Part shown: piece after piece, positions 12,170 to 33,449 of the stretch | Layout: each line of letters starts with the position of its first letter | How positions within the stretch are numbered: position 1 is the stretch's first letter | IMG/VR virus record: IMGVR_UViG_3300042261_000306 | Coordinates: 1 to 33,555 of that record | Reading direction: 5' to 3' (one strand) | Length of the DNA stretch: 33,555 bases | Source of the DNA: a virus | Translations under genes and position numbers: made by a program | The notes under the pieces: generated by a model | What the model saw: the letters and a program-made list of their open reading frames with translations, nothing else | Databases searched by the model: none | Told to the model about the DNA's origin: nothing

Positions 12170-12177
12170 TCGTCCCA

Positions 12178-14233: not shown

Positions 14234-14244
14234 GAGGATGCGCC

Positions 14245-14604: not shown

Positions 14605-14633
14605 GGTTGTCGCCAGCAGGGGGATTATTTGCC

Positions 14634-17600
14634 ATGGCGTCAGACACAGCCCGCCCGTATGTCGATTTCTACCAAGAGAAGAACGCCATTCTCGTTGACC
14701 TGACCGACATCCCAGGCGTCAATTCGCAGGTAGCGGTGCGGCGGTGGGACTGCTCCATCCGGGAAGAGCAAGCGCAGCGCATCATCGCGGAAATGGACGT
14801 GTATTCGTCCAGCGCGAACAAGACCCCGCAGCGATGGATTCAAGACCCGAACGCCGGCACGTTGGGCGCACAGGACGCCAGCGGAAGGCTCCCCGGCAAG
14901 TGGCGCGTCGTCAGTCACCAGTACAACCCGCCGAATCGCCGTGAGCGCGGGCTGTACCAAGTGCTGGCGCAGGGGTTCTTGCAAGCACCCGCGCTGCTTT
15001 CGCCTGACGAAATGCAAGACCCCGCGATGGCCAACAAGCAACTGGCTGATTGGTCGGCGATTGACAAGGAAGCGCGTATCACAAAGGTTGTGGACTGGAG
15101 CGTGGCGGGCAAGGATGCTTTTGCGCCGTACTACATCGTTACCTATCCAAATGTCGCGCAGGAAACCGTCGCGGAGTTTGTCAAACTTCTGATTCCGCGT
15201 GGACCGATAACGGACCCGGTGTTTGACTCGCAGACGCGCTTGGACGGCAACTACACGTTCACTGCGGCCAAAAACATCGAACAAGACGATGGCAGCAGCA
15301 TTGTCGTGGCGATTCTCGTCAAGGCTGGGTCTCCGGGGCTGAACATCCCGATTGCAAACAACTGCGGCAACATTATTTCGCGGACTCTCTACATGAACGC
15401 GCCGGTACCGGTTGCGGTGCCGTCCGGTGAAAGCGGCATTGAGTACAGCGTGCGAGACTTCTCGTTTGACCCTGAACTTGGCATGTTCACGATGAGCATC
15501 GAGCGGGTCGAACAGAAGGTGTTGACAACGGGGGTCGTCACGCAGGCAAGCGACCTTGCGGAGACGGTAGAGTCGCAGAAGTTTTCTGGCGTGCGCATTG
15601 GAGACGTGGACGAGGCGAATGTGGCGGTCCCGTTGTGGACACCCGGAAATCCGGCTGTCGGCCAGACCATCGAACAGCAGGTGACAAAGAACCAGAACTG
15701 CACCAAGGACTACGGGCAGGTGCGGAAGACGGTGAAGAGTTGGCTGGCGGCGATAGTCTCCAAGGCAAAAGACCTGTACGAAATTTCCGTCACAACCGTC
15801 AATCGCGGGCAGGCGGCGGCTGCGGCGGACCCGTCTGAACCGTCCGGTGGCGTGTATTCGGACGTGCGCAACGAGCAGAAACCGGATGGGTCGTATGACA
15901 TTACGGTTGCGGTGAAGACAGAGCGTGCGGTGTCGGATGCGCTGCTGGCGAACGCGGAGACGGTGTTTGACACAACCGGAGTTGCGATAGCACGCGGGCA
16001 GTCTCCGTCCACTCCGCTGACCGCATCGGTTGCTGCGGGCACCATCGTTGAGAAGAAGGGCGAGAAGTCCAAGGGCGCGTTGCTGGACGTGACCACAACC
16101 ACGCGCATCGAAAAGAACGTGCCCAACGCCGTCTTGTCCGCCACGCAGACGCTCTTTGAGACGCAGGCCGGAGTAGTGGACAAGGGGCAGTCCGTTGGCG
16201 CGATCACGGCCCCCGCAGCGTCAGGCGGCGTCGTGGTCAGCAAGACGGGCACGCTGACGCCTGGCGGATTGCAGAACGTCGAGACTAACACCAAAACGGA
16301 ACTGCCGGTATCGAGCGCGATGGTGGAGAACGCCGCCACCATCTTCGATACACAGGCCAAGGTGATGAACAAGGCGCAGTCACTTGTAACGTCGCTCACT
16401 CCGGTGACTCCATCCGGCGGTGTCACGGAAGTCAAACGGGGCATCAAGACTCCGGGTGGTCTGTTGGACGTTGAGACCGACACCCGCACAGAGAACGCCG
16501 TAACGGGTGCGGTGCTGGACAACTCCGCGACCATCTTTGCAACGCACGCCAAGCAGGTTGACAAGTCACAGGCAACATCCACCAGTTTGACGCCAAGTGT
16601 GTCTGCCGGCGTGATTACCGCCAAACAGGGGCAGAAGACGCCGGGTGGATTGCTGGACGTTGTGACAGACGTAACAACCGAGCTGCCTGTGACCGGGGCG
16701 GTCGTAGAAAACGCTTCTACAATCTTTGAGACGCTGGCCAAGCAGGTCAACAAGGCACAGTCCGAGGGTACATCCCTGACGCCAGCGACGCCAACCGGGG
16801 GCGTCACAGAGACCAAGCGTGGGATCAAGACTCCGGGCGGGCTGTTGGATGTTGAGACAAACACAACGACCGAACAAGGGGTTGCTGCTGCTGTTGTAAC
16901 GAAGCAAAAGACCGCTTTTGAGGATGTCACCACGACCGTCAACCGCAATCAGGCGTCCGACGCGGCGGCACCATCGGTTGCAGGCCAAACCGTTACCAAC
17001 CAGAAGACTCCGGGAGGTTTGGTCACGCAGGAAATCAAAACGATTGTCCCGGTTGCCGCGTCTGACGCCGAGCATCGGTCAAGCGCGACAATCTTTGAGA
17101 TTGTGGCCGAAACGACCGATAGAAATCAGGCGGTTGCGGCCACTCCCATCACCACCATTCCGTCCGCCGGCGCGTTGCACACCGTCGTGGCGTCAGAAAC
17201 GACAGAGGGCAAGTACAACAACACGGCCCGCGACGTGACGGAACAGGGTGTCGCCAACGCTGTGATTTCCGATACCAAAACGCTTTTCATGGATGATGCG
17301 GTTGTCGTAGACAAGAACCAAGCAGCCAACACTTCGCTGACGGTGCCTGCGGCGGCGGGCGGCGTTTTCAAGACTATCACCGGGCGCAAGACGCCAGGTG
17401 GGTTGCTTGACGTTGAGACGCAAACCAAGACGGAAGCAGCGGTCACGGGTGCGGTTATTTCTAATCAGACGACGGCACTGGAAACCGTCGCGGTAACGCT
17501 TGACAAATCGCAAGCGGCTGGAACGTCGCTAACGTCAAGTCTGTCAGGTTCTCCTCCTGTTTTGGTCGAAAAAAAGGGCATCAAGACCCAAGGCGCGTTG

Positions 17601-18179
17601 CTGGATGTCGAGACCACCACCACAACGGCGGTCCCTTCAAGCGACACACAGACCATCACTTCGCAGAATGGCGTCTTGACGCGCATCATGTTCCACAATA
17701 AGACTTCTGCGGAGGTTGCGTCACTGATTGCCGGACTGCCAGCCGGAGACAGCAACACCATCCATGACTTCGGCATTAACAAGTTTGGCCTGTATAGCGG
17801 GATGCTTCATTCGCGGACGGTGTTGACGGCTGGCGATGGGCAACTTTGGGCGCGTACCGGGCTGACGTTCGTGACGACTGAAACGCACACGGATAGTCAT
17901 GGCGTCCGGTGGCTATACAAGGACACCTACATCTATAACGAGTGTCGTGGCGTCGGGTGTAGCGCGGGGTCGAAGCGTGCCAGCGGAGGACATCAAAGCG
18001 GTACGTTGAGTCTGGACCTAAAGAACGACCTGTATTTTGTGAAGCGCGTGGTTCAGATTGACCGCGAAGTGTTCACGGTTGGTCGCATAAGTGCTGGCGG
18101 CGTGTGGACGCCTGCGGCTCCGTCGTCTGTTGGAACGTACAACATCTTCACTGCGGCGGTAATGCCTTGGGGGACATAA
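14634..18179 (+). CDS. 1181-residue fibre- or spike-like protein with tandem 63-residue repeats
   Basis: The ATG at 14634 has GGGGGA upstream, while the longer in-frame TTG start at 14607 has no site. Residues 1-390 are an N-terminal region starting ASDTARPYVDFYQEKN. Residues about 394-1005 consist of about nine full tandem repeats of roughly 63 residues plus a partial one. Each has (K)TPGGLLDVET-T, a V-x3-A-V stretch, an (S/A)TIFET-like stretch and ends V-[DN]-[KR]-x-Q. The C-terminal 175 residues are globular, rich in Gly, Thr and Tyr. Repeated beta units with a distinct tip are typical of tail fibres, where repeats set the length. It follows the adaptors and precedes two other likely virion-surface proteins. 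The repeat family is not recognised. Confidence 0.7.
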   Translation: MASDTARPYVDFYQEKNAILVDLTDIPGVNSQVAVRRWDCSIREEQAQRIIAEMDVYSSSANKTPQRWIQDPNAGTLGAQDASGRLPGKWRVVSHQYNPPNRRERGLYQVLAQGFLQAPALLSPDEMQDPAMANKQLADWSAIDKEARITKVVDWSVAGKDAFAPYYIVTYPNVAQETVAEFVKLLIPRGPITDPVFDSQTRLDGNYTFTAAKNIEQDDGSSIVVAILVKAGSPGLNIPIANNCGNIISRTLYMNAPVPVAVPSGESGIEYSVRDFSFDPELGMFTMSIERVEQKVLTTGVVTQASDLAETVESQKFSGVRIGDVDEANVAVPLWTPGNPAVGQTIEQQVTKNQNCTKDYGQVRKTVKSWLAAIVSKAKDLYEISVTTVNRGQAAAAADPSEPSGGVYSDVRNEQKPDGSYDITVAVKTERAVSDALLANAETVFDTTGVAIARGQSPSTPLTASVAAGTIVEKKGEKSKGALLDVTTTTRIEKNVPNAVLSATQTLFETQAGVVDKGQSVGAITAPAASGGVVVSKTGTLTPGGLQNVETNTKTELPVSSAMVENAATIFDTQAKVMNKAQSLVTSLTPVTPSGGVTEVKRGIKTPGGLLDVETDTRTENAVTGAVLDNSATIFATHAKQVDKSQATSTSLTPSVSAGVITAKQGQKTPGGLLDVVTDVTTELPVTGAVVENASTIFETLAKQVNKAQSEGTSLTPATPTGGVTETKRGIKTPGGLLDVETNTTTEQGVAAAVVTKQKTAFEDVTTTVNRNQASDAAAPSVAGQTVTNQKTPGGLVTQEIKTIVPVAASDAEHRSSATIFEIVAETTDRNQAVAATPITTIPSAGALHTVVASETTEGKYNNTARDVTEQGVANAVISDTKTLFMDDAVVVDKNQAANTSLTVPAAAGGVFKTITGRKTPGGLLDVETQTKTEAAVTGAVISNQTTALETVAVTLDKSQAAGTSLTSSLSGSPPVLVEKKGIKTQGALLDVETTTTTAVPSSDTQTITSQNGVLTRIMFHNKTSAEVASLIAGLPAGDSNTIHDFGINKFGLYSGMLHSRTVLTAGDGQLWARTGLTFVTTETHTDSHGVRWLYKDTYIYNECRGVGCSAGSKRASGGHQSGTLSLDLKNDLYFVKRVVQIDREVFTVGRISAGGVWTPAAPSSVGTYNIFTAAVMPWGT
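15813..17650 (+). repeat. Tandem coding repeats, about 190 bp each
   Basis: About nine full units of 177-192 bp, plus a partial tenth, encode the 63-residue repeats. The most alike DNA stretches are around 16440 and 16823, encoding IKTPGGLLDVET. Unit seven (about 16956-17130) is shortened and unit eight lacks the TPGG motif, so the array is degenerate at that point. Confidence 0.75.
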
Positions 18180-18799
18180 TGCCGACGTTTGAAAACAACA
18201 GTGGCGGCATTGACGCCGGACCAAACGCGGCGGGTCTGAACAAAGACCGCCTCGACAATCTCCGCGACATGGAACAGATGGTGAGGCAGATGGTTGGGCT
18301 TGCGATGGCAAATGCCGCGCAGGAAGCAGAAAACGAAAACGGCAAGCAGTTCAAGATTAGCGTGCCGCGACACGAGATCACGGTTGCCCCACCCGCTCCG
18401 TACCCGTGGAGCAAGACGCTGACGTTCGGACTGGAGGACTACGGGGGCGGCGTTCTAAATGTCTATCTGGGCGCGTGTCGGAGAGGCGGTGGTCCTGCGA
18501 CGGTGCGACCGTTGGGGCCGGGGACCGACTCGGATGTGTGGCTTGCGACTTCTCCGACAGCGGTAACTTTCGCGGCGGACGACGGAAGCGGCCAATGGGT
18601 TGTCGGGAAGTGGACGGAAGCGAGCGGACTGGAAATCCTCGCCACGCCGCAGACGAACGCGCCATCGCCGCGTGACGGCACAGGAGGGCTTTACTTCCCG
18701 ATTGCGTTGGTTTCGTATTCCAACAACAGGTTCATACTGCTTAACTACTGCGTTGGCGGCGTGTTTGACCTGTCGGTGTTCGGCCCGGAGGGTGCATAG
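18179..18799 (+). CDS. 206-residue possible fibre-associated protein
   Basis: The start overlaps the previous stop (TAATG), implying coupled translation. Residues 20-55 form a probable coiled coil (LNKDRLDNLRDMEQMVRQM and on), followed by a short linker (KQFKISVPRHEITVAPPAPYPW) and a C-terminal beta-rich domain of about 140 residues with Gly and aromatic residues (WLATSPTAVTFAADDGSGQWVVGKW). A trimerising helix before a beta domain is typical of small fibre or tip proteins. The stop overlaps the GTG start of the next gene. No family is recognised. Confidence 0.6.
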   Translation: MPTFENNSGGIDAGPNAAGLNKDRLDNLRDMEQMVRQMVGLAMANAAQEAENENGKQFKISVPRHEITVAPPAPYPWSKTLTFGLEDYGGGVLNVYLGACRRGGGPATVRPLGPGTDSDVWLATSPTAVTFAADDGSGQWVVGKWTEASGLEILATPQTNAPSPRDGTGGLYFPIALVSYSNNRFILLNYCVGGVFDLSVFGPEGA

Positions 18800-20880
18800 T
18801 GGCATACCCCTACAGAACCATAGGCGCGGTAACGGTATCGACCATCCTGGCGGTCGGCACTGGCCTGCTGTGGTGGCAGCGTCCGGCGAGCGTGAAACCA
18901 GATGTGCCGCGACCGCAGTATGAGGCAACCTTCATGGTCGCTCTTGCGGCGGAGCGGTTTCCGGCGATGGGCCGAACGACAAACTACCTGCAAACCATCC
19001 CGGCGAATATCAGCATCATTGTGGGCGGCCCGACTTCGACCCTGCACGCGGCTGGCCTATCTTCTATGCAGGTCACGGAGGATGGATACACCTATCAGCG
19101 GGTTTTCTCTTCAAACCAGTATTATTCGTGCGTTTTCGACGCTGCGGACGCAATAATCATGTCCGGCGGAAACCCGGAGACAGGAACCATTGTCAATCGC
19201 AGGACCGGAACGGGCAGGAACTCGCTGACCCTCTATCGGTACACAAACCAGTATTGGCGAACGGATCAGATATCCACTTACCTCGGCGGGACTACGTTCT
19301 GGATGTCAACCAACGATAGCCTGCCGTGCGTCCTGTACCCACGAAGATACCTGCCATTAACGACAGGGTACGCAGCGAACGCGCCCGCCTATCCGGTTGC
19401 GGTTTGCGGGTGGATCAAACTGCAAATGCTTGAGTACCGGACGAACTCGCCCGCCGTGGTGTGGACAAACACCGTGGGCCTGTTTCCGAACGCGACGTTT
19501 CAGTATCCGGCAGGGGTGCGGGCGGCGGTTTCACAGCATATTGGAACGGATTACACTCTTAACCCATCGCGGTACTGGATTCTTCCCAGCAACACGTTCT
19601 TTGAAACCGGGATTTTTGACGGAAAGTTCGTATTCGGCTGGCAGACTCGAACAGGAGGGATTAACGCATCTGCTCCATACAACTCATACGAATCCAGTGG
19701 ACCGGTGCTTCCAAGGCATCCGGGAGACAATCTGCCTAATCCATCAATCATAATTGATGCATTCGGTGGGGACATGTACCCCGCCTATCTGCACTCTGAA
19801 ACAAACTGGTGGACCAATCGCGTGACGCTATCCGTGGCTCACCGTGTCGCGCAGACGAATTATTGGGACGGAACCGTGATTCTCTGGACAAATGGCGTGG
19901 CGATCACAAACCAGTATCCGGCGACGAACAGCGGGGCATCGGTCACGGCTCCAAGCGCAACCGCAGGCCGACGCAGCACGACGAACTATCCCTACACATT
20001 CTCGACAAACTGCTGGCCGGCCAAGGCGTTTGCTTTCGAGCGGGACGGCGACCCCTACACCTGGTCAACGAACGCCTATAACGACCTTGCTCGACCCTTG
20101 TCGATCATGCAATGGCAGGACATTTACGGCGTCACTTATGAAAGGACAAATGGGCTCGGTTACTTTTATCATACGTCTTGGGACACAGGTGACATTGACG
20201 GAAGATATTGGTACAATAGCGGTTACAGCCTATCAGGAGTTAATCCCGTGTATATGCCACCGACCGCATACAATAACACGGTAGGCCCTAGAATATACTG
20301 GAAATCGTATATGATAACTAGATACTGGGAATGGGACTTTCCATCGTGGCCTCCCTATACGCACTATTCGACTGTAACGACTCAAAAGTACTGCCGTGTT
20401 TTTTTTGATTTGGGCTGTTTTGTTGTGTGTTCAAACTCGTTACCTTTTGCGTTGACAAACATGTATCTGCATTTCCCAGGAGGTCTGATCGCCGGAACAT
20501 CTTACAGCACAACGCACGCAAATGTTGCGGGAATATTTGATAGCGTAACGAACAGAACTTCGTTCTTTGATGTTGAATACAATCAAAATGCCAACGGTCC
20601 TTGCTTCTCAAACTGCTACCCGAATGTATCGGATTTGTTATCTTTTGCTGATTGGCAGGCCGCACTTGATTCATGGATGGCCGACTCAAGCACGTTGGTA
20701 TCGCAGGGCTTGTCTGGTTATTGGCAGAATGGATGCAATCATGGGTATTCGGAGAGCTATTGGGGTGGAGGAGTGCAGGAAGACAAGAGCGGTTACATGT
20801 TCATGGAGCTGCCAAAGCTGACGGCCCGCGTAGTTTTCTCTGCCCTGACCAACTACGTCCACCACGCGCCCGCAAGGTAG
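18799..20880 (+). CDS. 693-residue protein with N-terminal membrane anchor, possible receptor-binding or surface protein
   Basis: Translation starts at GTG in the previous stop (TAGTG), with GGAGG (18787-18791) upstream. Residues 6-26 (RTIGAVTVSTILAVGTGLLWW) form a hydrophobic segment after a basic Arg, so the protein could be a signal-anchored or exported protein. The rest is rich in Asn, Thr, Tyr, Trp, Ser and Gly with at least ten Cys residues, typical of extracellular beta-rich proteins. The DNA from about 20150 to 20650 drops to roughly 40-45% GC, unlike its neighbours, which suggests an acquired receptor-binding part. It lies in the fibre cluster. A virion surface protein or a host-envelope protein made during infection are both possible. 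No family is recognised. Confidence 0.65.
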   Translation: MAYPYRTIGAVTVSTILAVGTGLLWWQRPASVKPDVPRPQYEATFMVALAAERFPAMGRTTNYLQTIPANISIIVGGPTSTLHAAGLSSMQVTEDGYTYQRVFSSNQYYSCVFDAADAIIMSGGNPETGTIVNRRTGTGRNSLTLYRYTNQYWRTDQISTYLGGTTFWMSTNDSLPCVLYPRRYLPLTTGYAANAPAYPVAVCGWIKLQMLEYRTNSPAVVWTNTVGLFPNATFQYPAGVRAAVSQHIGTDYTLNPSRYWILPSNTFFETGIFDGKFVFGWQTRTGGINASAPYNSYESSGPVLPRHPGDNLPNPSIIIDAFGGDMYPAYLHSETNWWTNRVTLSVAHRVAQTNYWDGTVILWTNGVAITNQYPATNSGASVTAPSATAGRRSTTNYPYTFSTNCWPAKAFAFERDGDPYTWSTNAYNDLARPLSIMQWQDIYGVTYERTNGLGYFYHTSWDTGDIDGRYWYNSGYSLSGVNPVYMPPTAYNNTVGPRIYWKSYMITRYWEWDFPSWPPYTHYSTVTTQKYCRVFFDLGCFVVCSNSLPFALTNMYLHFPGGLIAGTSYSTTHANVAGIFDSVTNRTSFFDVEYNQNANGPCFSNCYPNVSDLLSFADWQAALDSWMADSSTLVSQGLSGYWQNGCNHGYSESYWGGGVQEDKSGYMFMELPKLTARVVFSALTNYVHHAPAR

Positions 20881-20942
20881 GGTTATAATGGAAATGAAGC
20901 GTCGGTGTTTGATAGACTGTTGCGAAGAAAGGCGAGTGCGAT

Positions 20943-22928
20943 ATGGCAGACATGACAACGGATGAAGCGATTGCGGGGTCAGCGGACGCTCGCGTGGAAT
21001 CGGAAGCGGCCCGCGTCGCTGCGGCCAACGCAATCGCGGAGCAGCGTGCTTCCGAGCAGGCGCGACGCCTTGCCGCGCAACAGGCGGATACCGCGTCGAT
21101 CACAGGAGCGACCGGCATACAGGGGCAGTTGAACCCGCGTGCGGACGCCGGGGCTACAGCGACGACACCCCCCGCCGCGTCGGCGGCGGCACCCGTTGCG
21201 ACACCCGCGCAGACGCCAGCGCAGACGCCAGCCACCGCGCAAGCCGACCTTGGCACAGAGCGTCCGCAAGTCGTCAGCATGGATGCTATACAACAGCGGC
21301 TTTCCCCCGCACAGCAGGCGGCATCGGAGCGGTACAATGCGAACGCCAAGCGGGTCGGCGGCGGGGCGGATTTGTCCTCTCGCGGCACGGTTGTTTCCCC
21401 GGCGGCACCCGGTAGCGCGTCAGAGCGTGCGACGGCGGGTGAAAATGCGCGGCGTATGGGGTCTGCTGGCCCGGTAGCGGGACGGCCCACGGCAAGGCCC
21501 GCAGCGGCTCAGGGCGGCGTTGCGGCCAGCGGGGGTGCCGTTGCCCCGGCAGCAGGCGAAACGGGCGCAGGCGGGGCGGCAGGCGCGACGGACGACGGCG
21601 GGATGCGCGTTACGCGGGAATCGACCGGCCCGAAGGGTACGACGGTCACGCGGACCCGGACGCCGACGCAGGAACGCATCCGTCAACTCGCGGCGATCCC
21701 GAACGCCGCCAAGACGCCAGAACACTATCAGGAAGGCATCAATCTGATGGTGCAAGACTTCAACGAGCGGGTCAAGGCACTCGAAGGCAAGCCGACCGAA
21801 ATGGCGGCGTTTCTCAGAAGTGCGATTGAGGCGCATAGCAAGGCTGCGCCGGACCCAGCGCACCCGGAACTTGGGCGAGCGCGGTTGGGCATCGTCGCGG
21901 ACGCCAAGGCAAAGTTGGACGCCATTGAACCGGAGCGCGTCGCCGCAGAAGCAAGGTCGCAATCGGCGGTTGCCAGTGCGCAGGAAGCGCAGATAAAGGC
22001 GATGGCGGCGGTCCCCGAGACGCTTGCCAAGTTGTCCACGCCGGCACCGCATGAGACGGACGGCGGAATCAGGGCTATCACCAGCGCGGGACGGTGGCTT
22101 GTCGCCAACAAAGCCGCGATGCTTGCCAACAAGACGCTCACACAGGAGCAGTTTGACCAGTACCACGGCGAACTGCTTGGCCGGCTGACGGACGCGCAGA
22201 CCGAACACCACAAGGCCGAATCGGAGAAGAAGAAGGTCGGCGTCGAGAAGGAGTTGGACGCCACCATCAAAGCCAAGGGCGCGAAGAACCTGGGCGTCGG
22301 CTTTTTTGAAGGCGAGATGTCGAACGCCTATGCGCAGAAGGCGGACTACTTGGAGCGGGCAATCAAAGCGACCGCGCTGACGGCTGACGGGCGCGTGGTA
22401 TCGACGCTGACCGAACCGGCGAAGGACCGGCTGAAGATGGAACTGCGCATCGCCAAGGAGCAGCAGCGGAAGTGGCAGGAGCGGAAGGACAAAGAGGATG
22501 TCATTGAGGGCGTCGTGCGCGGAACAATGGGCGCGGTCGGCAAGCAGTACCTATCCGGCAATCGCCTGTCCGTTGGCGACATGCAGAAGGCGACAACCGC
22601 AATGACCGTCGGCGCGTTGAAGGCGGGCATGACGCCGGACTACAAGAAGGCGTCGGAAGCCTACAACAAGTCGGTCGAGAACACGGCCAAGTACGACTAC
22701 ATGATGGACGACCGGGGCAAGCACCCGGACAAGTACCAGTATGACCCTGCCACGGGGACCATCACGGACGTATCGGACCCGAAGAATCCGGTTGTCGTGA
22801 CCAAGCCGGACGAGAAGGCGGAAAACGCGCTGTACGAGAAGATGCGGGAGATGCTTGACCGAACCACCGCAGGATCGGTTGACAAGTCGTTTGCCGCCAC
22901 GGAACAGCAGCCGGCGCAACAGCAGTAA
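20943..22928 (+). CDS. 661-residue probable internal or ejection protein
   Basis: AAAGGCGAG precedes the ATG. The first 200 residues are a disordered Ala/Gly/Pro/Gln/Thr-rich region. The remainder is mainly long charged helices with segments such as TQERIRQLAAIPNAAKTPEHYQEGINLMVQDFNERV and AYAQKADYLERAIKATALT. It has no Cys and a Gln-rich end (EQQPAQQQ). This design, together with the position before a giant polyvalent protein, resembles podovirus internal virion proteins that leave the head with the DNA. It ends 15 bp before the giant gene, so the two are made together. No domain is recognised. Confidence 0.6.
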   Translation: MADMTTDEAIAGSADARVESEAARVAAANAIAEQRASEQARRLAAQQADTASITGATGIQGQLNPRADAGATATTPPAASAAAPVATPAQTPAQTPATAQADLGTERPQVVSMDAIQQRLSPAQQAASERYNANAKRVGGGADLSSRGTVVSPAAPGSASERATAGENARRMGSAGPVAGRPTARPAAAQGGVAASGGAVAPAAGETGAGGAAGATDDGGMRVTRESTGPKGTTVTRTRTPTQERIRQLAAIPNAAKTPEHYQEGINLMVQDFNERVKALEGKPTEMAAFLRSAIEAHSKAAPDPAHPELGRARLGIVADAKAKLDAIEPERVAAEARSQSAVASAQEAQIKAMAAVPETLAKLSTPAPHETDGGIRAITSAGRWLVANKAAMLANKTLTQEQFDQYHGELLGRLTDAQTEHHKAESEKKKVGVEKELDATIKAKGAKNLGVGFFEGEMSNAYAQKADYLERAIKATALTADGRVVSTLTEPAKDRLKMELRIAKEQQRKWQERKDKEDVIEGVVRGTMGAVGKQYLSGNRLSVGDMQKATTAMTVGALKAGMTPDYKKASEAYNKSVENTAKYDYMMDDRGKHPDKYQYDPATGTITDVSDPKNPVVVTKPDEKAENALYEKMREMLDRTTAGSVDKSFAATEQQPAQQQ

Positions 22929-22943: not shown

Positions 22944-25900
22944 ATGGACGACTCCACACTGGACCCCTTTGCAGCGTCAGAAAACGCCGCACCAGACCCC
23001 GGCACCTTCGCGGCGGTGACTGGCTTGGCTGGCGGTGCGCAGGGCGAATTGGCGGCACAGGCGGCGAACAACATGCCGGTTGCCGCGCGTCCACCCGCGC
23101 AGCAGACTTCGCCCACGACTGCGCCCGCGCCGGAAAAACCAGCCGAGAATCCCGTCGCGCAGGATGATCCCTTCGCAGCGGAAGAATCCTTCGCAGGGCA
23201 GGCGGTCGGCGTGACCAAAAGCCCGACGGACGCGATGGAGACTGCGGCGGCAAGTCGGAGCATGGCAACACGGGATACGGAACTGAATCCGCCACCGCCA
23301 GAACTGACCGGCGTTTCCAAGAGCCAGAAGGCGGCGTGGAAGCAGGGCGAGAAGGTCAAGGCAATCGGCGGATGGGAAGTCGCAGGAAGGACGCTGGCAG
23401 AGGAAACGGGTCCGTTTGCGGCAGGCGCGGCGGCTGGAATGGCGTCCTTTGGGCCGGCAGCAGAGGTGGGTCTATTCCAGGGTGGTCCGTATTGCGCACT
23501 GGCGACCGGCACGGCGGTCAGTACAATCAATGCTATCGGCGCGGCTACCCTTGTGGCACACGCGCAAAAACGACTGCAAAACCTCGTCAACTCTCCCGAG
23601 TACATGGAAGAGGACCGGCGAATCAGGCAGCTGGCCGCGCAAGAGCATCCGCAGGCCGCTGGCGCAGCCGCAATGATTCCCGGCATGGCGATGTTGTTGA
23701 CGCCGCAGGGAGAGGCGCAGCTTACACGGAAACTTTTGCAGCGCATGATTGACGGCGGCAAGGCTCGTTCTGCGCAGTCCGTGTTAAGGGCGCGTGCGAT
23801 CATCGAAGGCGGCGGCGTGCTGAAAAGCGCAACCGGATTCGGCAGGATGTCGGGCGCGGGTGCGGGTATCGCCAATGAAGAGGCGGGGGAGCCGGTTGCC
23901 AGCATTGGCGATGAAACCATCAAGGGTTTGGCGATGGGCGGACCCTTGCACTTCATGCCGATGGCGACAAAGGTGCTTGGCGACTCCCTTGCGGCCAAGG
24001 CGCCAAAGGGAATGACCGCCGCGCTTGCCTTGGCGTTTTCCAGCGAAGCATACGATGCGACATTCCGGGGCAAGCCGTTTGATGCGCAAAAGGTTTTGGA
24101 TGAAGCCAAGAGCAATGTCCCGGCATTTGTGCTGATGGAGGCGTTTCCCAAGGTGCTTTCCATGATGGCGCGGAAGCCAACCGAATCGCGGCCCGTTTCG
24201 GCCATCGACGACCCCTTCGCGCAGCCCGAGAACGCGCCAATTCAGAAACCCGGCGCGGTGCAACTTGTCGGAAATCACACCGACGCCACGCGGGAAGTTG
24301 CTGACTCCGCGCAGGCCGCAATCGACAAGCGCGGACTGAAGGTGCCGGTGCAGGTCCATGCGGACAGCGAGAGCCTGGCGCGGGCAATCGGTGCGCCGGT
24401 CACGATGAAGGCAGACAACGCGACAATCACTTCGCCGGACAATTCGGACAGCGCGAAACTCAAGGTGTCGGCATACCACGGCACGCCGCACACGTTTGAA
24501 CCGGAACCTGGTTCTCCGTTGGGCAAGGTGAAAAAGGAGAAAGTCGGCTCGGGCGAAGGCGCGGCGGCATACGGATGGGGCGTGCTGTATGCGGCTGAAA
24601 ACAAGGGCGTTGCGGACACGTACACAAAAGCCGGAGACCCCGCGCAGCGGTTCAAGGTTCTCGCGCACGAACTTGCCAAAGCGCAAGGAAGGTCAAACAC
24701 GGTTGAGGTGGATGGTCAGGTGTTGAGCGACTATCAGATGGCGCGCCGCCTTCAAGACAAGGATGCCGAGTTCATTGCCAAACTTCCCGAGAACATCCGT
24801 AACAAGATTGAACAAGCGGAGCGGGGCAACCTTTATCACATCGAAGTCAACGCAGAACCCGAGGACATGCTGGATTGGGACAAGCCGTTGAGTGAGCAGA
24901 GCGAGGGCGTGCGGAAAGCGCTTGGCAAGCATCTGGTCAGGTCAGAATACAACGTCAATGGAAAAGGGCTTTCCAGTTTTACAGGAAGCGCGGTGCTTGG
25001 CGTCAAACTTCAATCTGAATTACGGAAGACGGATGGAGACGTAATGACAGCACTTCGCAATCTGCGAAGCATAGAGACAGGCACGGACTTGTGGAGGAGC
25101 CAAGTTGACCATGCGCTGTCGCTCGACTGGTCGGGTCTTAGAAAGTCGGAGCAAGAAAAACCTTGGAGCGGTCAGGGTCTGTACAGGGAACTAGCGGATG
25201 CGCAAACTCCAAAAGCCGCCAGCGAATACCTAGCGTCCCTCGGCATCAAGGGCATCCGGTACGCGGATCAGGGGAGCCGTGGCGCTCCGGTTGTCCGTCC
25301 AGTGACCAGCAGCCGCACGGGTGACACGCTTTGGCAGGTAGATGTTGGCGGCGGGACGCAGCCGATGGAGTTCGCCAGCAAAGCGGAAGCCGACGCCAAA
25401 GCCGCAGAGATGGCGAATAGCAAGACCTACAACTACGTCATCTTCGACGAGAACGACATCCGCGTGATCGGGCGCAATGGAGAAGTGTTGCCGCCGTCAG
25501 AGGCCATGAATGTCGAACCGCGCTTCAAGAAGTCCGCGCCAGACTCCATCGCAGCCGCAGCGAATATCACAAAGGGCGAAGTCCACATCGACTCATCCGC
25601 ACCCGAGTATCGCAACGCGGACGGCACGGTGAATCACAAGGCGGTCGAAGCGGCGGTCGTGCATGAGGCAATCGGGCACGTCGGCATAGAGCGTGCATTG
25701 GGAAAAGAAAAGTTTTCCCAAATGGCGGTATCGCTTGCATCCTCGTTGTCTCGGAATGAGCGTCGGGCGATTGGCGAACAGTGGGGAATGAACTACACCA
25801 AACCGGAAGATGCCAGCCTGACCCGCGAGCAGCGCAAGGAAAAGCGGGACAAGTACATTCTGGAAAATATCGGCGCAGAACACTTGGCGACCATCGCGGA

Positions 25901-28900
25901 GAACGCGCAACTTGGCGGCGTATGGCGGTCGATCATGGACAAGGTTGTTGTGGCGTACAACCGGACGCTGCGTGCGATGGGTGCGCCACGGGACTTCACC
26001 GACGCGGAAGTGCGGGACATTCTGCGCAAGGGTGAGCGTGCCGCACGGAAAGGCGATTTTGGTGCAGCAGAGTTCACAACCGGTGCGGATATGCGTGCGA
26101 AGGCGGGGCAGCAGGCGGGCGTTACACCGGAGCGCGACGCCCGCTTCCGCGAGTTGACGAAGACATGGCCGGGGGGCGGGCAGGCGCAACAAACCGGAAT
26201 GGAAGGCGCACTGCGGGCGCGATGGACCGCCGACGCAATGCAACACGCTGATTATCTGATTGCAAACGGAGAATCTGTTGGTGTCGGATCGTTGAACAAG
26301 CGCGTACTCGACCTCGTGTCTAAACTTCGATCCATCGGGATAGACTTCGATGCACCATACTTGAGCGCAAGCAAGGGACTGCCGAAGTTCCGCGCCGAAG
26401 CGATTGAGTTGGCGAGCAAAGCCAAGGATGCCATTCGGAGCAAGGCGCAACCAGCACAACCCCCCGCCTCCATCCCCGCCGCGTGGGCCGCGTGGAAGTC
26501 CGCTCACCCCGCCGAGTACGCCGAGCTTGAGAAGATGCGGGCGGAGGTGCTGAAGGAGCAGGCTCCGCAACCTAGGCAATCGTGGCGCAACGCCTACGAA
26601 ATGGGGAAGCGAGCCAAAGCAGACGGCGTGCGATCAGAGCGCGAGTTCTTCGAGGCAATGACCACAACGGAACTTGATTCGCTTCCATCGGAATCTCCAG
26701 GATGGAATGCGTTTTTCAGGGCCGGTTTCTACGACAAGGATATGCCTGAATATGTCACCGGATGGCGCTACGGCAAGATACCAGAATCAGACCAATCCAC
26801 CAACTTCCGCGAGCAAATAGCGGAACGCGGCGTGTCGCTGATGCGGCTGGACGGCGAAGAATCATCGTCTGGTGCAAAGGTATATGAGATGTTCAACCGC
26901 AAAGGTAACATGCTTCACGTTGGCGGGTGGTATGCCGGGCGCGGGACAGATGGAGAACCGCTTATTGTTGGCGCGAAGGAAATCAAATCCGCCGAAGTCG
27001 CCCCCGACGACACGGGCCGCATACCGCCGCCGAGCGAGTGGGGGAATAGTGGCACGCCTGATATACGAGACGTGTCCAAAGGGGTACATGCAAGCATGGA
27101 GTTGCCGAATGAGGGTGCTGAGGGCAAGAAACTGCCTCAGCCTGGCTATGAGAAACCGGGCGAGGATGCGGCGGCGGACGCCCGCTTCCGCGAGTTGACG
27201 AAAACGTGGACGCCCGTGGGCGGTGATATTTTGCCGCATACTGCGGTGTCAAACACTCCCGGCACATGGCGATACATTGACTCATCCAAACAAAGAGTTG
27301 AGCAGCTCCAGTCATTGAATGTCAGCGCACTCCCAGTGACCAAAGGAAATCGCATATACGCCGAGACCGTTGACCGATACATTCGCAATCGCACGGACAA
27401 ACATCCGGTCGTGTTCCTCGACTCGAAAACCGGAAAGTATTTTGTGGACGACGGAAACCACAGAATCCAAGCAGCTAAAGCGCGAGGCGAGAAAACTGTA
27501 CTGGCGTGGGTGCGCAAAGGACTGACTGGCGGAATGCCAGACCCGCGCCTTGACGCAGCCCCTCCCGCCGACATCCGCTACAAGGCGGGTCTGACACCCG
27601 AGCAGATACGCCAGCGCGAAGAGTTTGGAAAGAAGCGCGACGCGGAAGTTGCCTTGGCAAGTCAGCAGCGGCAGTCAAGAATTGCCGAACTGACGCAGCG
27701 CATTGCAGACGAAAACAAGTCCCTTCAGCGCGACCCAGTGACCGATAAGCCCGTTGGATTGACGCCTGAGCAGGTTGCGTTGCGGCAGGAATACAAATCT
27801 CTCATGCAGAAAGAGATGGAGTATGTCTTGGCGCAAGAGTCTGTAGGGAGTGGCTACGGCGTTGGGCAGACTCCCGAGCAGGCGGCGGAACAGGCGCGTT
27901 TGCGTCAGGAGCGCGACCGGCAGACGGCCACAATGGACGTTCAGAACCAGGCGGCGCGACAGGCGGCAGCCGGTGGACCGCCGCAGCCCGCACAGCCGGT
28001 CGCAGAGAAGAAAACGCGCAACCGCCAAGGTCCGCGACAGGGTTGGGAAGAACGTGCGCCCGCGATGCGCCAGGAGCAGAACGTGCGCTTCATGGCGGGG
28101 AAGAAGCGCGTCGATGGAGAGGAACAACCCGACCTACTTCCCGCAGACCAGCAGCCGTTCAATCTTGCGCAGGAACAGTCCGCGCTCGACCCTCAGGCAA
28201 TCGACCGACAGATGGCCGACCGCAAGCGCAAAGCGGATCAGGACCGCCAGCAGCAGGAGTTTCGGTTTAAGGCGGGAAAGAAGAAGGATAAGAGCGGATG
28301 GGCGGTCAACAAGATTGTGCTGCAAAGACTCTACGACCGCGAAAACAAGAAACCTCCAGAGCAGCGGCGCACCGACAAGGAGTTGCGCGAACTGGCCTTG
28401 CGCCCACCCGTTGACCGAGACACGCAGGTTGGCATCGACCCCGAGCGGATGCCGACGTTGAGTGCCATGATTGAGAACGGATGGTCGATTCGCAACCGGA
28501 AGAACGAAGGCGGCGGCGAATACGACGAAGCCGGAACGTGGAGAGAGTTTGGCCGTTTTGCGCAGGAGATTTTCGGTGGCGAACACGGCGATGCGGCAGA
28601 CATTGTTGCAGACAACCTTGGCCTGACAACATCTGAGATGTGGCGCAGGTTGAGGAACGAAGTCAAGAACTACAAGTCGAAGGCTGCAATGCGCACGGCG
28701 GAAGAGGATCGCATCGAATCCGATCAGGTCCGGGCAGAAGCCAAGTTGCAAGGTCCGCAGGAAGTCTCCGCATACGACTTGGAACAGGGCGATTTGGTCA
28801 AACTCAATGGCCGCTGGCACGAGTTCAGCACGGACGAAGTGAACCAGACCCCCGTGCTGGAACGTTCCACAGGCGAAGTCGTCCCCATGCACGTCAGCGC

Positions 28901-31900
28901 ACCAATGCAGGTAGACGGCGTGGTGCGCAAGGGAGACGTGATTTACGACTTCGAGAAGAAGCGCATGGACGCGGACAGGGCGCAGCTCCGCAAGATCACG
29001 GATCAGGGCGACTTGGTGCCGGCGGATGAGGCGAACCAAGAGAACGCAAACCTTGCGAGACTTGCGCCCGATGAAGCGGAGATTCTCAAGGCTTTCCGCG
29101 CCGGCAAGAAGGCGCAGACCCCCGCAGAGCAGCCCGCCGCGAAGGTTGGCGCGGGTGAGCCTCCGACGGTCGCGCAGGAGCCCGCCAAGCCAGCACTCAC
29201 GCAGCATCTTGTAAACGGCCTTTGGGAGAACAGAGACGCGGACGGTAACCCAGTTGGAGAACTGTACCAGACGCGGGAGGATGCTCAGAAGGCTGCTGGC
29301 ACGACGGTCGGTTTGCAAGAGCCACCAAAACAAACCAATGAGCCTATCCGCGACGATGACGGGAACATTGGACTCACGTTTTCTTCTGACGACAAGGCGC
29401 GTGCGGAAAACGACTTGCCTGAGCGCGACCAGTCCGAAAGACGAAGCAACCGCGAACTGATTGAAACAGCGGCGGATAGCGTGTCAAAAGACCCGCAGTT
29501 GCCGCAGCGGATCATTGACGAATTGAAGGAGACAGGACGCAAGCAGATCACGCGAGAAGAAAGTGGCGTCCTGTTGTTGGAAAAGGCTCGTCGTCAGCGT
29601 AATATGGACGAGGCGCGTGATGCGATGAATGACCTGTCAGAAGAAGCTGCTGAAAACGTGCTTGCGATTCATCGGTGGGAAAAGGCAAAGAACGCTTATC
29701 GTGAAGTATCCGATGTTCATGCGCCTGCCGTTTCAGAGGCGGCAAGGCAGTTGCAGGCACAGCAAGTCAAGCTGGACCCTGACTTGAACTATGTGGAGCA
29801 GGAGAAGTCTCTTGAGGTTGAGCTTGGACGCAAACCAACAGACGATGAAATTGCGGAACGTCACTCTCTTGTAGACTCCCTTCGCAAGGAAATCGCAGCA
29901 CTGAGAGCAAAAGAATCCAGACACGCGGCGATCCTTGCCAAGCGCACAGCTGACGCACGTTTGAGCGAACTGGTTTCTGTGGAGAATGGTGGTGCGCCGG
30001 CACAGGAATACATTGCTCCAGAGATTCTTGAGCGTGCGCGGAAAATCGTCGAGAAACTGGACAAGGCTGCTGATGCTGCTGAAAAAGACTTCATGGCGAA
30101 GTGGCAGACGTTCACGCGTGGCGGCGCAAACGACGTGTCCAAGGCCGTAACGCTACCAGCAGAAATGCTGAAACCGTTGGCACTACGCGGTGCTTCGCTG
30201 TTAGCGCACGGAGCGTTGGACACAGCAGAGTTCACGGCGAAGATGGTAGAGCGATACGGGCCGCAAGTGGTGGCATACATCGGTCAGATTCGCAAGGAGT
30301 CTGACAGGGTTTTACGCGGTGAGGCTGGAGGAGACGCGAAGGTATTGGACGTGATTGGCAAAACGGACGCGAAACCGCTATCGCTCGAAGTGCTGAAAGG
30401 AAAGGCAAAGGCACTGGCCGACAATGGCACTGGAACGGATTTGCTTGGAAACATCATTGACCAGTTGGCGCGGTATCACATTCAATCCGAAGGAATTAAG
30501 ACAATAGACTCCATGACGGATGCCTTGCGCAAGGACTTGTCGGATGCCTACCCACAAATCACAGGTGTGCAGATTCACAATGCTTGGTCCAGGTACGGGA
30601 AATCCACATTGCCAGACCAAGCGGAAACGGAGGTTGCTTTCCGCGACCTCAAGGCGCAGGCATTGAAACTTTCTCAGTTGAACGCGTTGGCAACGGAGTT
30701 GCGCGTAAAGAGAACAGGTGCGCAGCGCGATCCTCCAAGCGATGAAGTTCGTCGTCTGCAACAGAAACTTCACCAGAAGATGAAGGAGGCTGGTGTGTCG
30801 GTTGGAAACACGGCAGAAGAAGAACTGCAATCTATCCAAGCAACCATCGCCAAGCGTCTTTCGCATCAGTTGGCCGACATGCTTCATTATTTGGACACTG
30901 GGGAGAATGTGGAGAAAACCCCCGGAGTTCAATACAGCGAAGCAAACGAGGCTGTCCGAGCAATCAAAGAGCGCGTGCGTGCGGTCATTAACTCCATCAC
31001 CCCCACAGACCCTCAAAAGGTCACCGCAGCAAAGATTGAACGAGCCATTACGCAGTACGAACGGCTTGCGTCGGAAGCGTATCGAATGATGGGCGAAGGC
31101 GTTACGGAACGTCCGAGTGCGGAAGCGCTGCCAGAGACGCCGGAACTCAAATCGGCGCGTGACGCCAAGAATGAGGCATACGCCAAACTCAAAGCGTTGG
31201 CAGAGGCGTCAAAACCGCAGACCAGCAAAGAAGCCCAGCAAGCCATGAGCGACCTGTTGGCGGCTGAAAAGTCATTGGACCGTCTTGAGGGCGGCTCGGC
31301 CAAGGAAAAGGTCGCACCTCGCTGGGAGACTCCGCGCACTTCTGAAACGGCACCCATTCTGGATGAACTGTACCGCGCATGGCAGTCCCTTGCGGAGAAG
31401 CGCGTTGAGAATGAGCGTGCGGAAAAGGACAGTCAAACGTCCAGGGCCATTGAAGCGGACATGAGGCGGGATAAGGCGACCATCGAACGGCTAGAACGCC
31501 AGATTGAGGATACCGCTGGAACGCCCCCGGAGCGGTCCCCGGAAGCGGATGCTGCCCGTGCGCAAAAGAAAGCGGCTGATGCGAAGGCTGCTGCTGACAA
31601 GGATGCGGCGTTGACTCCGGAGCAGCGAGAGTTGAAGCAGCGAATTGCGGACTTGCGTGATGTGCGCAAGACGGTTCAAAAACTTAACGATGCCACGCAG
31701 TCGGCGGAAGAACGGTTGCTGGCGTACAGGATTGCAGGAGCAAGAAAGCGTGCGGACGCGCTTGAGCAGAAGTTAAGTGTCGGAGACACGTCCAAGAAAG
31801 CAGCGGTTGCTCGCATCCGGTACGACACCGGAAAGTACGATCAAAAGTTGAACGAGATGCAGCGGGAGCTTGACGCTCAGATGGCACGAGCGAACACTGC

Positions 31901-33449
31901 GCGGTCCAAGATTCGTCAGGCGCAGCTTGAGAACGAGATTGCGCATCGCTCCGGATGGGAAAAGAAACTGGACTGGTGGCGCGGGTACCGTCGTTTCGCA
32001 ATTTTGTCCGCGCCAACAGCCCTTGTAAAAATCCCGTTCTACGGAATCAACGCGGCCATTCTTAAGCCGTTGCGCATTCTCGCTGAAAGTGTTTTCAGAA
32101 ACACGGATACCGCAATGCGGCAGGGTAGGTATGTTACACCTGCATCGCTCGGTTCTTATTTTTCCGCTCTTCCAGAGGCGTGGAGTTCGATGAAGAAAAC
32201 ATTTGCGGAAGGAAAGGATGAAATAAAAGCAGCGCATGAGACTGATTCAGAAGGGAATATGCGCCTTGACATTGACGGAAAGATTCCAAGATGGATGACA
32301 ATTCCACAAAGATTGCATGAGGCTGAAAAGGCAGGTTTGCGTACAATGGAATACCGTTGGGCGCAGCGTGTTCAAGACGACTGGGTTCTGCAAATCGCGA
32401 AGCGCGATAAGCAGTTTGCAAGAGGGAAGGTGCTGCTATATGACGCGGCTATGGATCATGGATTCGATCCGTTCAACCCAGTTGTTCGTTCCGTGATTGA
32501 TAAGCGTGCATGGGAATGGGCAAAGGCTGAGATCCTGATGGAACCCGGAGTGCTTGCCGGCAGTGTGCGGGCTGCAACTCACTGGTTAGAGCGTGTTGAT
32601 CCTAGAACTGGCAAGCCAAACCCAACCAAAAAGGTTGCTTCTGTTGGAATAACAACGGTTGCCCCCATTCTTACTGTTCCTGAAAACTACTTCAAGCAGA
32701 CGATGCGTTACCAGTTTGGTGCGATGTCAGGATTGGAATGGGCGGCGAAAGAGATGTCCGGCGCGGCTCGCAACCTCAATGACGAGCAGGCATGGAGACT
32801 CACCAGGCGCATGACGGAAGGTGCAATCGGAGCGGTTGCTGCCAGCATCGTGATCTATTCTCGCCTAAACGGTAATCCAGTCATTCAGCGTGGTAGTTAT
32901 GACGACCCGGAAGGGAAGGAGCATGATGGGCTGAAACCTGGAAAGATGAAGGTTTTTGGTCATCCAATCTCCAAGTTTCTGTCCCATCATGGATTCATCG
33001 AGAGCCTTGTCGTGGTTGACAATATGGCTCGTACAATCCAAGCAAGTGGCGTTTCGGATGAAGTTGCCAAGACGTTCCTAGAAAACGAGATTGAGCAGAT
33101 TGGCAACTCACCGATTACCAGTCTAAACATCAACATGAATGCGAGAACATGGGGTAGGCCGGCAAGTCTCATTGGATCGACGGTTGCCGGAATGGCGATA
33201 CCGTTGGCCTTCAAGCAGGTTGCGGAGCGCATGGACCCTAACAGTCCAGACGCTTCGGCGTTTTGGTGGCTTGACGCCGGAAATGACGTGGATATTCAGA
33301 AGCGCGCTGCGGACAAGAATGATAGTGCAACCAAGCAGTTTTTCGACTCCCTAAAAACGGTCGTTCCGGTTCTGCGCCAGCAGGTACCAGAGAAGCAAGA
33401 AGGCAGACGTGGCGGTCGCGGTGGTCGTCGCGACAACAACCGGAACTAG
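22944..33449 (+). CDS. 3501-residue polyvalent protein (ADP-ribosyltransferase-like, zincin-like and ParB-like domains)
   Basis: The start has GGGGGAT upstream. Visible parts: 1-500 partly disordered N-terminus with hydrophobic stretches; 508-850 ADP-ribosyltransferase-like domain of the phage polyvalent type, with YHGTPH (511-516), YGWGVLYAAE (543-552), GIKGIRYADQ (767-776) and YNYVIFDENDI (829 on); 880-1046 zincin-like domain with HEAIGH (907-912); 1100-1420 unrecognised; about 1425-1525 ParB-like segment with DDGNHR (1502-1507); about 1938-1990 a small SH3-like stretch; 2150-3000 long helical, coiled-coil-rich region; 3000-3430 C-terminal region with hydrophobic helices like those of phage large polyvalent proteins; and an RGG-type basic tail. 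It has no polymerase or helicase motifs. Such giants are packaged and injected to act on the host early. Target modification by the first domain is inference. Confidence 0.85.
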   Translation: MDDSTLDPFAASENAAPDPGTFAAVTGLAGGAQGELAAQAANNMPVAARPPAQQTSPTTAPAPEKPAENPVAQDDPFAAEESFAGQAVGVTKSPTDAMETAAASRSMATRDTELNPPPPELTGVSKSQKAAWKQGEKVKAIGGWEVAGRTLAEETGPFAAGAAAGMASFGPAAEVGLFQGGPYCALATGTAVSTINAIGAATLVAHAQKRLQNLVNSPEYMEEDRRIRQLAAQEHPQAAGAAAMIPGMAMLLTPQGEAQLTRKLLQRMIDGGKARSAQSVLRARAIIEGGGVLKSATGFGRMSGAGAGIANEEAGEPVASIGDETIKGLAMGGPLHFMPMATKVLGDSLAAKAPKGMTAALALAFSSEAYDATFRGKPFDAQKVLDEAKSNVPAFVLMEAFPKVLSMMARKPTESRPVSAIDDPFAQPENAPIQKPGAVQLVGNHTDATREVADSAQAAIDKRGLKVPVQVHADSESLARAIGAPVTMKADNATITSPDNSDSAKLKVSAYHGTPHTFEPEPGSPLGKVKKEKVGSGEGAAAYGWGVLYAAENKGVADTYTKAGDPAQRFKVLAHELAKAQGRSNTVEVDGQVLSDYQMARRLQDKDAEFIAKLPENIRNKIEQAERGNLYHIEVNAEPEDMLDWDKPLSEQSEGVRKALGKHLVRSEYNVNGKGLSSFTGSAVLGVKLQSELRKTDGDVMTALRNLRSIETGTDLWRSQVDHALSLDWSGLRKSEQEKPWSGQGLYRELADAQTPKAASEYLASLGIKGIRYADQGSRGAPVVRPVTSSRTGDTLWQVDVGGGTQPMEFASKAEADAKAAEMANSKTYNYVIFDENDIRVIGRNGEVLPPSEAMNVEPRFKKSAPDSIAAAANITKGEVHIDSSAPEYRNADGTVNHKAVEAAVVHEAIGHVGIERALGKEKFSQMAVSLASSLSRNERRAIGEQWGMNYTKPEDASLTREQRKEKRDKYILENIGAEHLATIAENAQLGGVWRSIMDKVVVAYNRTLRAMGAPRDFTDAEVRDILRKGERAARKGDFGAAEFTTGADMRAKAGQQAGVTPERDARFRELTKTWPGGGQAQQTGMEGALRARWTADAMQHADYLIANGESVGVGSLNKRVLDLVSKLRSIGIDFDAPYLSASKGLPKFRAEAIELASKAKDAIRSKAQPAQPPASIPAAWAAWKSAHPAEYAELEKMRAEVLKEQAPQPRQSWRNAYEMGKRAKADGVRSEREFFEAMTTTELDSLPSESPGWNAFFRAGFYDKDMPEYVTGWRYGKIPESDQSTNFREQIAERGVSLMRLDGEESSSGAKVYEMFNRKGNMLHVGGWYAGRGTDGEPLIVGAKEIKSAEVAPDDTGRIPPPSEWGNSGTPDIRDVSKGVHASMELPNEGAEGKKLPQPGYEKPGEDAAADARFRELTKTWTPVGGDILPHTAVSNTPGTWRYIDSSKQRVEQLQSLNVSALPVTKGNRIYAETVDRYIRNRTDKHPVVFLDSKTGKYFVDDGNHRIQAAKARGEKTVLAWVRKGLTGGMPDPRLDAAPPADIRYKAGLTPEQIRQREEFGKKRDAEVALASQQRQSRIAELTQRIADENKSLQRDPVTDKPVGLTPEQVALRQEYKSLMQKEMEYVLAQESVGSGYGVGQTPEQAAEQARLRQERDRQTATMDVQNQAARQAAAGGPPQPAQPVAEKKTRNRQGPRQGWEERAPAMRQEQNVRFMAGKKRVDGEEQPDLLPADQQPFNLAQEQSALDPQAIDRQMADRKRKADQDRQQQEFRFKAGKKKDKSGWAVNKIVLQRLYDRENKKPPEQRRTDKELRELALRPPVDRDTQVGIDPERMPTLSAMIENGWSIRNRKNEGGGEYDEAGTWREFGRFAQEIFGGEHGDAADIVADNLGLTTSEMWRRLRNEVKNYKSKAAMRTAEEDRIESDQVRAEAKLQGPQEVSAYDLEQGDLVKLNGRWHEFSTDEVNQTPVLERSTGEVVPMHVSAPMQVDGVVRKGDVIYDFEKKRMDADRAQLRKITDQGDLVPADEANQENANLARLAPDEAEILKAFRAGKKAQTPAEQPAAKVGAGEPPTVAQEPAKPALTQHLVNGLWENRDADGNPVGELYQTREDAQKAAGTTVGLQEPPKQTNEPIRDDDGNIGLTFSSDDKARAENDLPERDQSERRSNRELIETAADSVSKDPQLPQRIIDELKETGRKQITREESGVLLLEKARRQRNMDEARDAMNDLSEEAAENVLAIHRWEKAKNAYREVSDVHAPAVSEAARQLQAQQVKLDPDLNYVEQEKSLEVELGRKPTDDEIAERHSLVDSLRKEIAALRAKESRHAAILAKRTADARLSELVSVENGGAPAQEYIAPEILERARKIVEKLDKAADAAEKDFMAKWQTFTRGGANDVSKAVTLPAEMLKPLALRGASLLAHGALDTAEFTAKMVERYGPQVVAYIGQIRKESDRVLRGEAGGDAKVLDVIGKTDAKPLSLEVLKGKAKALADNGTGTDLLGNIIDQLARYHIQSEGIKTIDSMTDALRKDLSDAYPQITGVQIHNAWSRYGKSTLPDQAETEVAFRDLKAQALKLSQLNALATELRVKRTGAQRDPPSDEVRRLQQKLHQKMKEAGVSVGNTAEEELQSIQATIAKRLSHQLADMLHYLDTGENVEKTPGVQYSEANEAVRAIKERVRAVINSITPTDPQKVTAAKIERAITQYERLASEAYRMMGEGVTERPSAEALPETPELKSARDAKNEAYAKLKALAEASKPQTSKEAQQAMSDLLAAEKSLDRLEGGSAKEKVAPRWETPRTSETAPILDELYRAWQSLAEKRVENERAEKDSQTSRAIEADMRRDKATIERLERQIEDTAGTPPERSPEADAARAQKKAADAKAAADKDAALTPEQRELKQRIADLRDVRKTVQKLNDATQSAEERLLAYRIAGARKRADALEQKLSVGDTSKKAAVARIRYDTGKYDQKLNEMQRELDAQMARANTARSKIRQAQLENEIAHRSGWEKKLDWWRGYRRFAILSAPTALVKIPFYGINAAILKPLRILAESVFRNTDTAMRQGRYVTPASLGSYFSALPEAWSSMKKTFAEGKDEIKAAHETDSEGNMRLDIDGKIPRWMTIPQRLHEAEKAGLRTMEYRWAQRVQDDWVLQIAKRDKQFARGKVLLYDAAMDHGFDPFNPVVRSVIDKRAWEWAKAEILMEPGVLAGSVRAATHWLERVDPRTGKPNPTKKVASVGITTVAPILTVPENYFKQTMRYQFGAMSGLEWAAKEMSGAARNLNDEQAWRLTRRMTEGAIGAVAASIVIYSRLNGNPVIQRGSYDDPEGKEHDGLKPGKMKVFGHPISKFLSHHGFIESLVVVDNMARTIQASGVSDEVAKTFLENEIEQIGNSPITSLNINMNARTWGRPASLIGSTVAGMAIPLAFKQVAERMDPNSPDASAFWWLDAGNDVDIQKRAADKNDSATKQFFDSLKTVVPVLRQQVPEKQEGRRGGRGGRRDNNRN
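26136..27202 (+). repeat. 26-bp exact direct repeats bounding a 347-codon module
   Basis: An identical 26-bp sequence lies at 26136-26161 and 27177-27202, starting GACGCCCGCTTCC and encoding DARFRELTK. The extended match continues with few differences (RELTKTW). The copies are 1041 bp apart, exactly 347 codons, so recombination between them would remove or duplicate the intervening unrecognised module without a frameshift. Confidence 0.75.

Follow-up and report, generated by a model that had tools for sequence, protein, structure and literature searches.

The virus record IMGVR_UViG_3300042261_000306 comprises 33,555 bases, and this whole stretch (the window) was analyzed here. An uninterrupted open reading frame (ORF) with an ATG start, located on the plus strand at positions 22944..33449, encodes a giant polyvalent-type protein of 3501 amino acids (aa), and its translation bore out the protein claimed in an earlier note on this DNA. 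The giant carries an ADP-ribosyltransferase (ART)-like domain, a HExxxH zincin and a plausible ParB-like segment. Its most interesting feature, absent from the earlier note, is a short peptide that is repeated between the domains; such a peptide, in versions specific to each protein, also recurs between domains in other ART-carrying giants (designated below by handles such as L001).

Domains of the giant protein

Sequence searches of Pfam, PHROG and PDB with the whole giant gave nothing above threshold, nor did searches of Pfam and PHROG with pieces of it. No helicase, methylase or polymerase was matched in the whole-protein or piecewise scans, in agreement with the earlier finding that none is visible. 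An ART-PolyVal-like domain was placed at residues 511-845 (24474..25478, plus strand) by alignment, family profile and model. Residues 503-862 aligned with 67 relatives from other giants at 26-41% identity, and 61 of the 68 aligned domains matched PF18760 ART-PolyVal (E<=0.01), with one relative (L001) exceeding the PF18760 gathering score. The window's own domain gave no direct match to PF18760 and did not reach the Pfam gathering cut-off, probably because its catalytic strand is longer by one residue (GVLYAAE versus GLYFAE) and because of large inserts. Judged from its sequence, it is best regarded as a relative of the ART-PolyVal family and not as a member by the Pfam cut-off. The H-Y-D active-site residues of ART-PolyVal are present in the window domain; H512 and Y549 lie in invariant alignment columns, and D835 lies at the strand-5 position (the "YVIFDE" strand) in a column that is variable in some relatives. 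ARTs with an H-Y-D active site have been described previously (PMC5512222).

The AlphaFold model of the window ART (predicted local distance difference test [pLDDT] score of 78) matched viral proteins named ART-PolyVal in a structure search, with E values from 2.5e-14 to 7e-6, and an unnamed viral protein at an E value of 2e-17. No solved structure in the PDB matched the model at E<=0.001, and the ART profile gave only weak matches, to unrelated proteins, among PDB sequences. Since the matches were to viral models and none was to a PDB structure, the structural support for the ART fold is indirect. Hence, the ART-like domain previously proposed at residues 508-850 was confirmed through the family alignment and the PF18760 relatives, with boundaries that were about right and with its conserved residues found as H-Y-D, and the structural check of that segment gave matches to viral ART-PolyVal models and none to PDB structures. 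A small insert, rich in strands and closing with a helix, was also observed inside the ART (25284-25412, residues 781-823; TLWQVDVGGG...FASKAEADAKAAEM); it is missing from all four relatives that were aligned residue by residue.

The zincin, found by profile search, occupies residues 866-1045 (25539..26078, plus strand). A profile of eight HExxxH zincins from other giants picked residues 896-1040 with an E value of 9e-15, confirming the zincin-like domain that had been suspected from the HEAIGH motif at residues 907-912. This motif contains H907, E908 and H912, and the downstream residue E979 is the third ligand, so that the three metal ligands sought (H907, H912 and E979) are accounted for. 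The motif, the downstream glutamate and the profile match are those of the HExxxH clade, a zincin variant described in PMC5512222. The ParB/Srx-like segment (residues 1455-1528; 27306..27527, plus strand) was delineated from sub-threshold profile matches, namely, to SbnI (ParB/Srx fold) across the DGxHR core (E=0.09) and to DUF6551 (E=0.05). Here, the DDGNHR motif stood where it had been reported, at residues 1502-1507, and profile support stayed below threshold (E=0.05-0.09); a ParB-like identity of residues 1455-1528 appears plausible. Outside the ART and the zincin, the giant is orphan sequence. The proposal that its domain set is unusual did not hold, as the ART, zincin and ParB-like domains, and the HExxxH variant too, are all among the published polyvalent domains (PMC5512222). 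Unrelated activities (ART and zincin) are combined in one ORF, as in the polyvalent proteins defined by Iyer et al. 2017, and the gene sits at the end of a module of virion genes, with delivery along with the DNA being predicted. The giant is a new polyvalent protein of divergent sequence, and the kinds of domain that it combines are known ones.

Recurrent peptide at domain borders

The version of the peptide in the window's giant is R[FY][KMR]AG. Its copies, all on the plus strand, were identified as KLKVSA directly before the ART (residues 505-510; 24456..24473), RFKKSA between the ART and the zincin (residues 860-865; 25521..25538), RAKAG after the zincin (residues 1051-1055; 26094..26108), a first RFRELTKTW (residues 1067-1075; 26142..26168), a second RFRELTKTW before the ParB-like segment (residues 1414-1422; 27183..27209), RYKAG after the ParB-like segment (residues 1545-1549; 27576..27590), RFMAGKK (residues 1715-1721; 28086..28106), RFKAGKK (residues 1774-1780; 28263..28283) and a last copy, FRAGKK (residues 2051-2056; 29094..29111). 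All of these lie within residues 505-2056, and the motif-free ends measure ~505 and ~1445 residues. The pattern [FY][KMR]AG occurs five times in the giant versus 0.2 times in local shuffles (p about 0.0005); one of the five matches, at residue 1258, falls inside a region without an assigned domain, and one match to a looser pattern, at residue 569, falls inside the ART. Neither pattern occurs in the 14 other window proteins, and this restriction to the giant argues for a role in cis. The related protein L164 also has FRELTKTW at this position, downstream of a zincin-like motif of its own.

In other ART-carrying giants the peptide is NYSIG (L040), [YF]MPA (L063), LFQ (L092), LLAK (L005), GLLES (L110), ESYNQ (L161) or LxAK (L001 and L027). 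The ART of L063 is flanked directly, by QYMPA-AYHGTP before and TEKM-FMPA after, and copies stand 9 residues past the second ART of L063, 7 residues past the second ART of L110, and 12 residues past LPD1 and 48 past LPD3 in L001. The related virus contigs L001:1571-20821 and L027:1583-20968 encode giants of >6,400 residues in which the LxAK-type peptide is repeated; domains found in the L001 giant were ART, RadC, LPD1, LPD3, LPD5 and DUF7178.

The placement was examined in 71 non-redundant proteins, with one ART taken from each and the ARTs being <60% identical, by comparing the 35 residues upstream of the ART with the 55 downstream of it and scoring the 5-residue stretch that matched best. 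The mean flank match was 18.1 within proteins versus 15.0 across proteins (z=10; 0 of 20,000 permutations as high), and with only the last 15 residues ahead of the ART the z was 11.5. When the pre-ART segment was shifted away, z values were between -0.4 and 1.5, with two exceptions (4.2 for an offset of 30 and 3.0 for an offset of 250); several proteins (L040, L011 and L089) have another copy ~30 residues upstream. After the ART, the signal was confined to positions +0 to +45 and was gone further out. Additional copies elsewhere within the same proteins numbered 55, compared to 18.6 expected. The result was replicated on the flanks of a different domain, PBECR1 (n=18; z=3.1; p=0.0014), for which shifted controls gave -1.6 to 1.9. 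The peptide therefore exists as a protein-specific element placed at domain flanks. An observation on the bacterial-genome polyvalent-type protein L150 (Phocaeicola vulgatus ATCC 8482), with RFRQV before its ART and RFRFI after it, suggests that this feature may reach beyond phages.

Column statistics on the 71 proteins revealed F, Y, W, L or M at position -5 in 63%, versus a background of 18%, and Ala at position -1 in 61 proteins, with the ART beginning one residue after the Ala. The peptide stands at the end of a flexible linker rich in G, P, S, D and E, and this linker, the hydrophobic anchor at -5 and the Ala together look like an exposed protease site. Identical residues shared a codon in 66 of 124 cases (53%), against 52.8 expected (43%; z=2.5). 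Since the peptide was kept though codons differ in the other 47%, selection has acted on the peptide; codons have largely diverged, yet some recent duplication remains.

Gene order and regions without an assigned domain

The giant is the last gene of a podovirus-like virion module, the preceding genes of which (5061..22928, plus strand) were called by annotation search. All on the plus strand, these include the terminase large subunit (5061-6728), a portal/head-tail adaptor (7016-9100), the major head protein (10670-11665), further virion genes with tail-like and helical products and, directly before the giant, a gene for an Ala-rich helical protein (20943-22928). A 1190-aa tail-like protein (14607-18179) consists of several divergent repeat copies (KTPGGLLDVET...), and no tandem repeats were found in it at the DNA level. 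The gene order matches that of podovirus modules with DarB-like giants. In the Bcep22-like podovirus JC1, gp69 (4515 aa) is likewise very large and ends the virion module, and 51 unique peptides place it in the virion (PMC9144972). By this analogy, the place of the window's giant supports packaging and ejection. JC1 gp69 and P1 DarB (PMC9024508) are virion-borne proteins, and the window's giant is predicted to be one; DarB is annotated with helicase and methyltransferase domains, which were not detected in the giant.

The N-terminal region (residues 1-504; 22944..24455, plus strand) is Ala/Gly-rich, lacks the interdomain motif and contains DPFA three times (residues 7, 75 and 423). Short N-terminal peptides are repeated in other giants as well (IDFD four times in L164, N[FP]FD[QA]FD in L128 and L139, and FDDLLP twice in L130), and such acidic/aromatic repeats are candidate packaging tags, comparable to the N-terminal signal of DarB. 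No domain was assigned to residues 1076-1413 (26169..27182, plus strand) or to the C-terminal region, residues 2057-3501 (29112..33446, plus strand), which has no interdomain motif and is a putative virion/ejection part. A search of viral contigs and phages for relatives of the C terminus and of residues 1053-3501 yielded none save L164, the nearest relative, for which similarity covers residues ~1064 to 1206. Searches for relatives likewise gave no domain assignment for residues 1100-1420 and 2150-3000, and a single-sequence AlphaFold model of residues 1067-1544 (pLDDT 37), a span that takes in the ParB-like segment, was too poor for fold assignment. A Peptidase_S21 (assemblin) match after the zincin (26142-26700; E value of 0.0014; 18.8 bits versus a cut-off of 27) was rejected.

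Proposed processing of the giant and alternative explanations

We consider it about an even chance that the giant is a packaged and ejected polyprotein, cut at the repeated peptide by a phage protease, most likely the built-in zincin. The ends (residues ~1-505 and 2057-3501) would serve packaging and ejection, and the middle (residues 505-2056) would consist of successive effector cassettes (ART, zincin, uncharacterized, ParB-like and others), with R[FY][KMR]xG or a similar phage-specific peptide marking the borders between them. The protease, most likely the HExxxH zincin, would recognize the peptide and cut at its copies, and each cassette, once released, would work in the cell by itself. 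On other grounds, Iyer et al. 2017 (PMC5512222) proposed that zincins process polyvalent proteins, either ahead of packaging, as with P1 DdrB, or following entry. The polyvalent proteins of that study (Tox-ART-HYD2-like ART plus zincin MPTase) have the same ART, HExxxH zincin and ParB-like segment, and they are giant late-gene products predicted to be packaged and injected, as the window's giant would be; they differ from it in that most of the window's giant has no assigned domain. DdrB, a head protein reported to be processed (PMC5512222), shares the combination of a ParB-like domain with a C-terminal metallopeptidase (zincin) but is only 995 aa long, lacks an ART and showed no obvious repeated motif when its sequence was read here. 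Although zincin processing is predicted there, a search of the text for linkers, motifs and junctions found no recurrent interdomain peptide and no cleavage peptides or sites described, and no described interdomain motif was found in other literature, with subscription papers and supplements outside the search.

Across the family, Q-ending motifs went with an HExxH zincin beside the ART (7/15 versus 2/56; p=1.4e-4) and F[RK] motifs went with HExxxH zincins (p=0.001), the ARTs of the carriers being only 24-38% identical. These associations are only suggestive, because the classes were defined post hoc and the relatedness of the proteins was not corrected for, and this is one of several points that weigh against a self-cut polyprotein. 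The motif pattern of the window was fixed only after its copies had been inspected, and the KLKVSA/RFKKSA pair of the window ART, taken alone, was not significant in the pairwise test. About half of the 71 proteins lack a clear pair, and 33 of the 71 reached the looser score that was used in counting additional copies. Copies inside homology blocks (5 of 39, versus 8.3 expected) deviated in the expected direction and not significantly. A recognized zincin was missing from many sequences of the set, some of which are contig fragments. Moreover, the N4 virion RNA polymerase contains an MPTase domain and yet enters the virion intact (PMC5512222); any cutting may thus take place at a later point or, in some phages, not happen. 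Packaging, cutting, the zincin as cutter and the order of these events are what we infer, and the peptide copies are candidate sites.

The peptide, repeated along the giant, might instead serve as a tag through which a chaperone, scaffold, portal or ejection channel binds or sorts the protein, with no cutting at all. The first 30 residues of P1 DarB target it to the head (PMC9024508), which indicates that short tags matter in such proteins, and a tag, too, would be phage-specific and kept at the peptide level. We nevertheless regard it as unlikely, as a tag needs no exact place at both flanks of the ART, one residue before the domain, and the N-terminal part of the window's giant lacks the motif, whereas the known signal of DarB is N-terminal.

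The sites may also be cut by a separate prohead protease of the phage or by a host protease, an explanation that we hold to be distinctly improbable. We take GLLES of L110 to resemble T4-type LxE sites, which was counted in its favor, and a database record note has DarA of P1 processed in head maturation. SPN3US head proteins are reported to be cut by the phage's own prohead protease (PMC10052503), and processing by T4 gp21 and SPN3US gp245 is likewise a short-motif cleavage of virion-borne proteins. In those phages, one separate protease acts on many head proteins, whereas in the window the motif is found only in the giant, which itself contains the candidate protease. No protease was recognized among the virion genes of the window, and the motif is not in its major head or scaffold-like proteins. 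Contrary to a separate protease, motif class tends to follow zincin class; taken with the in-cis distribution, this makes the built-in zincin a better candidate than a head protease of general action.

A shade more doubtful still is that the copies remain from past shuffling of cassettes, in which domains would be swapped where like linkers recombine, the likeness being one of DNA. Cassettes are mobile and duplicated (ARTs are repeated in L005, L115 and L158), the window's giant contains the exact 9-mer RFRELTKTW twice, and same-codon use exceeds expectation as given above. However, nearly half of the identical residues have different codons, and the likeness is limited to a few flank residues, whereas a recent DNA duplication would reach further and keep codons. 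Chance resemblance in an ordinary polyvalent protein is very improbable: the window motif is degenerate and its pattern was chosen post hoc, but the family-wide flank test is independent of the window, and the giant is where the motif is concentrated.

Returning to the self-cut polyprotein, its extension to the family is held more tentatively, at somewhat less than even confidence: each polyvalent protein of phages and mobile elements would have its own cleavage peptide at cassette borders, read by its own zincin, with peptide and protease coevolving and swapped cassettes needing the local peptide. The new part is the family-wide, protein-specific peptide at cassette borders, for which processing sites appear to be the best explanation. 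Polyvalent proteins occur widely, and as to how a single chain of many enzymes works after ejection, zincin processing had only been predicted. If giants do mark their own cassette borders, these borders would be readable from sequence, regions without assignment could be split into testable units, and the protease would be pointed to. Polyprotein processing would then have a parallel among bacterial viruses, in which each phage has its own pairing of protease and site.
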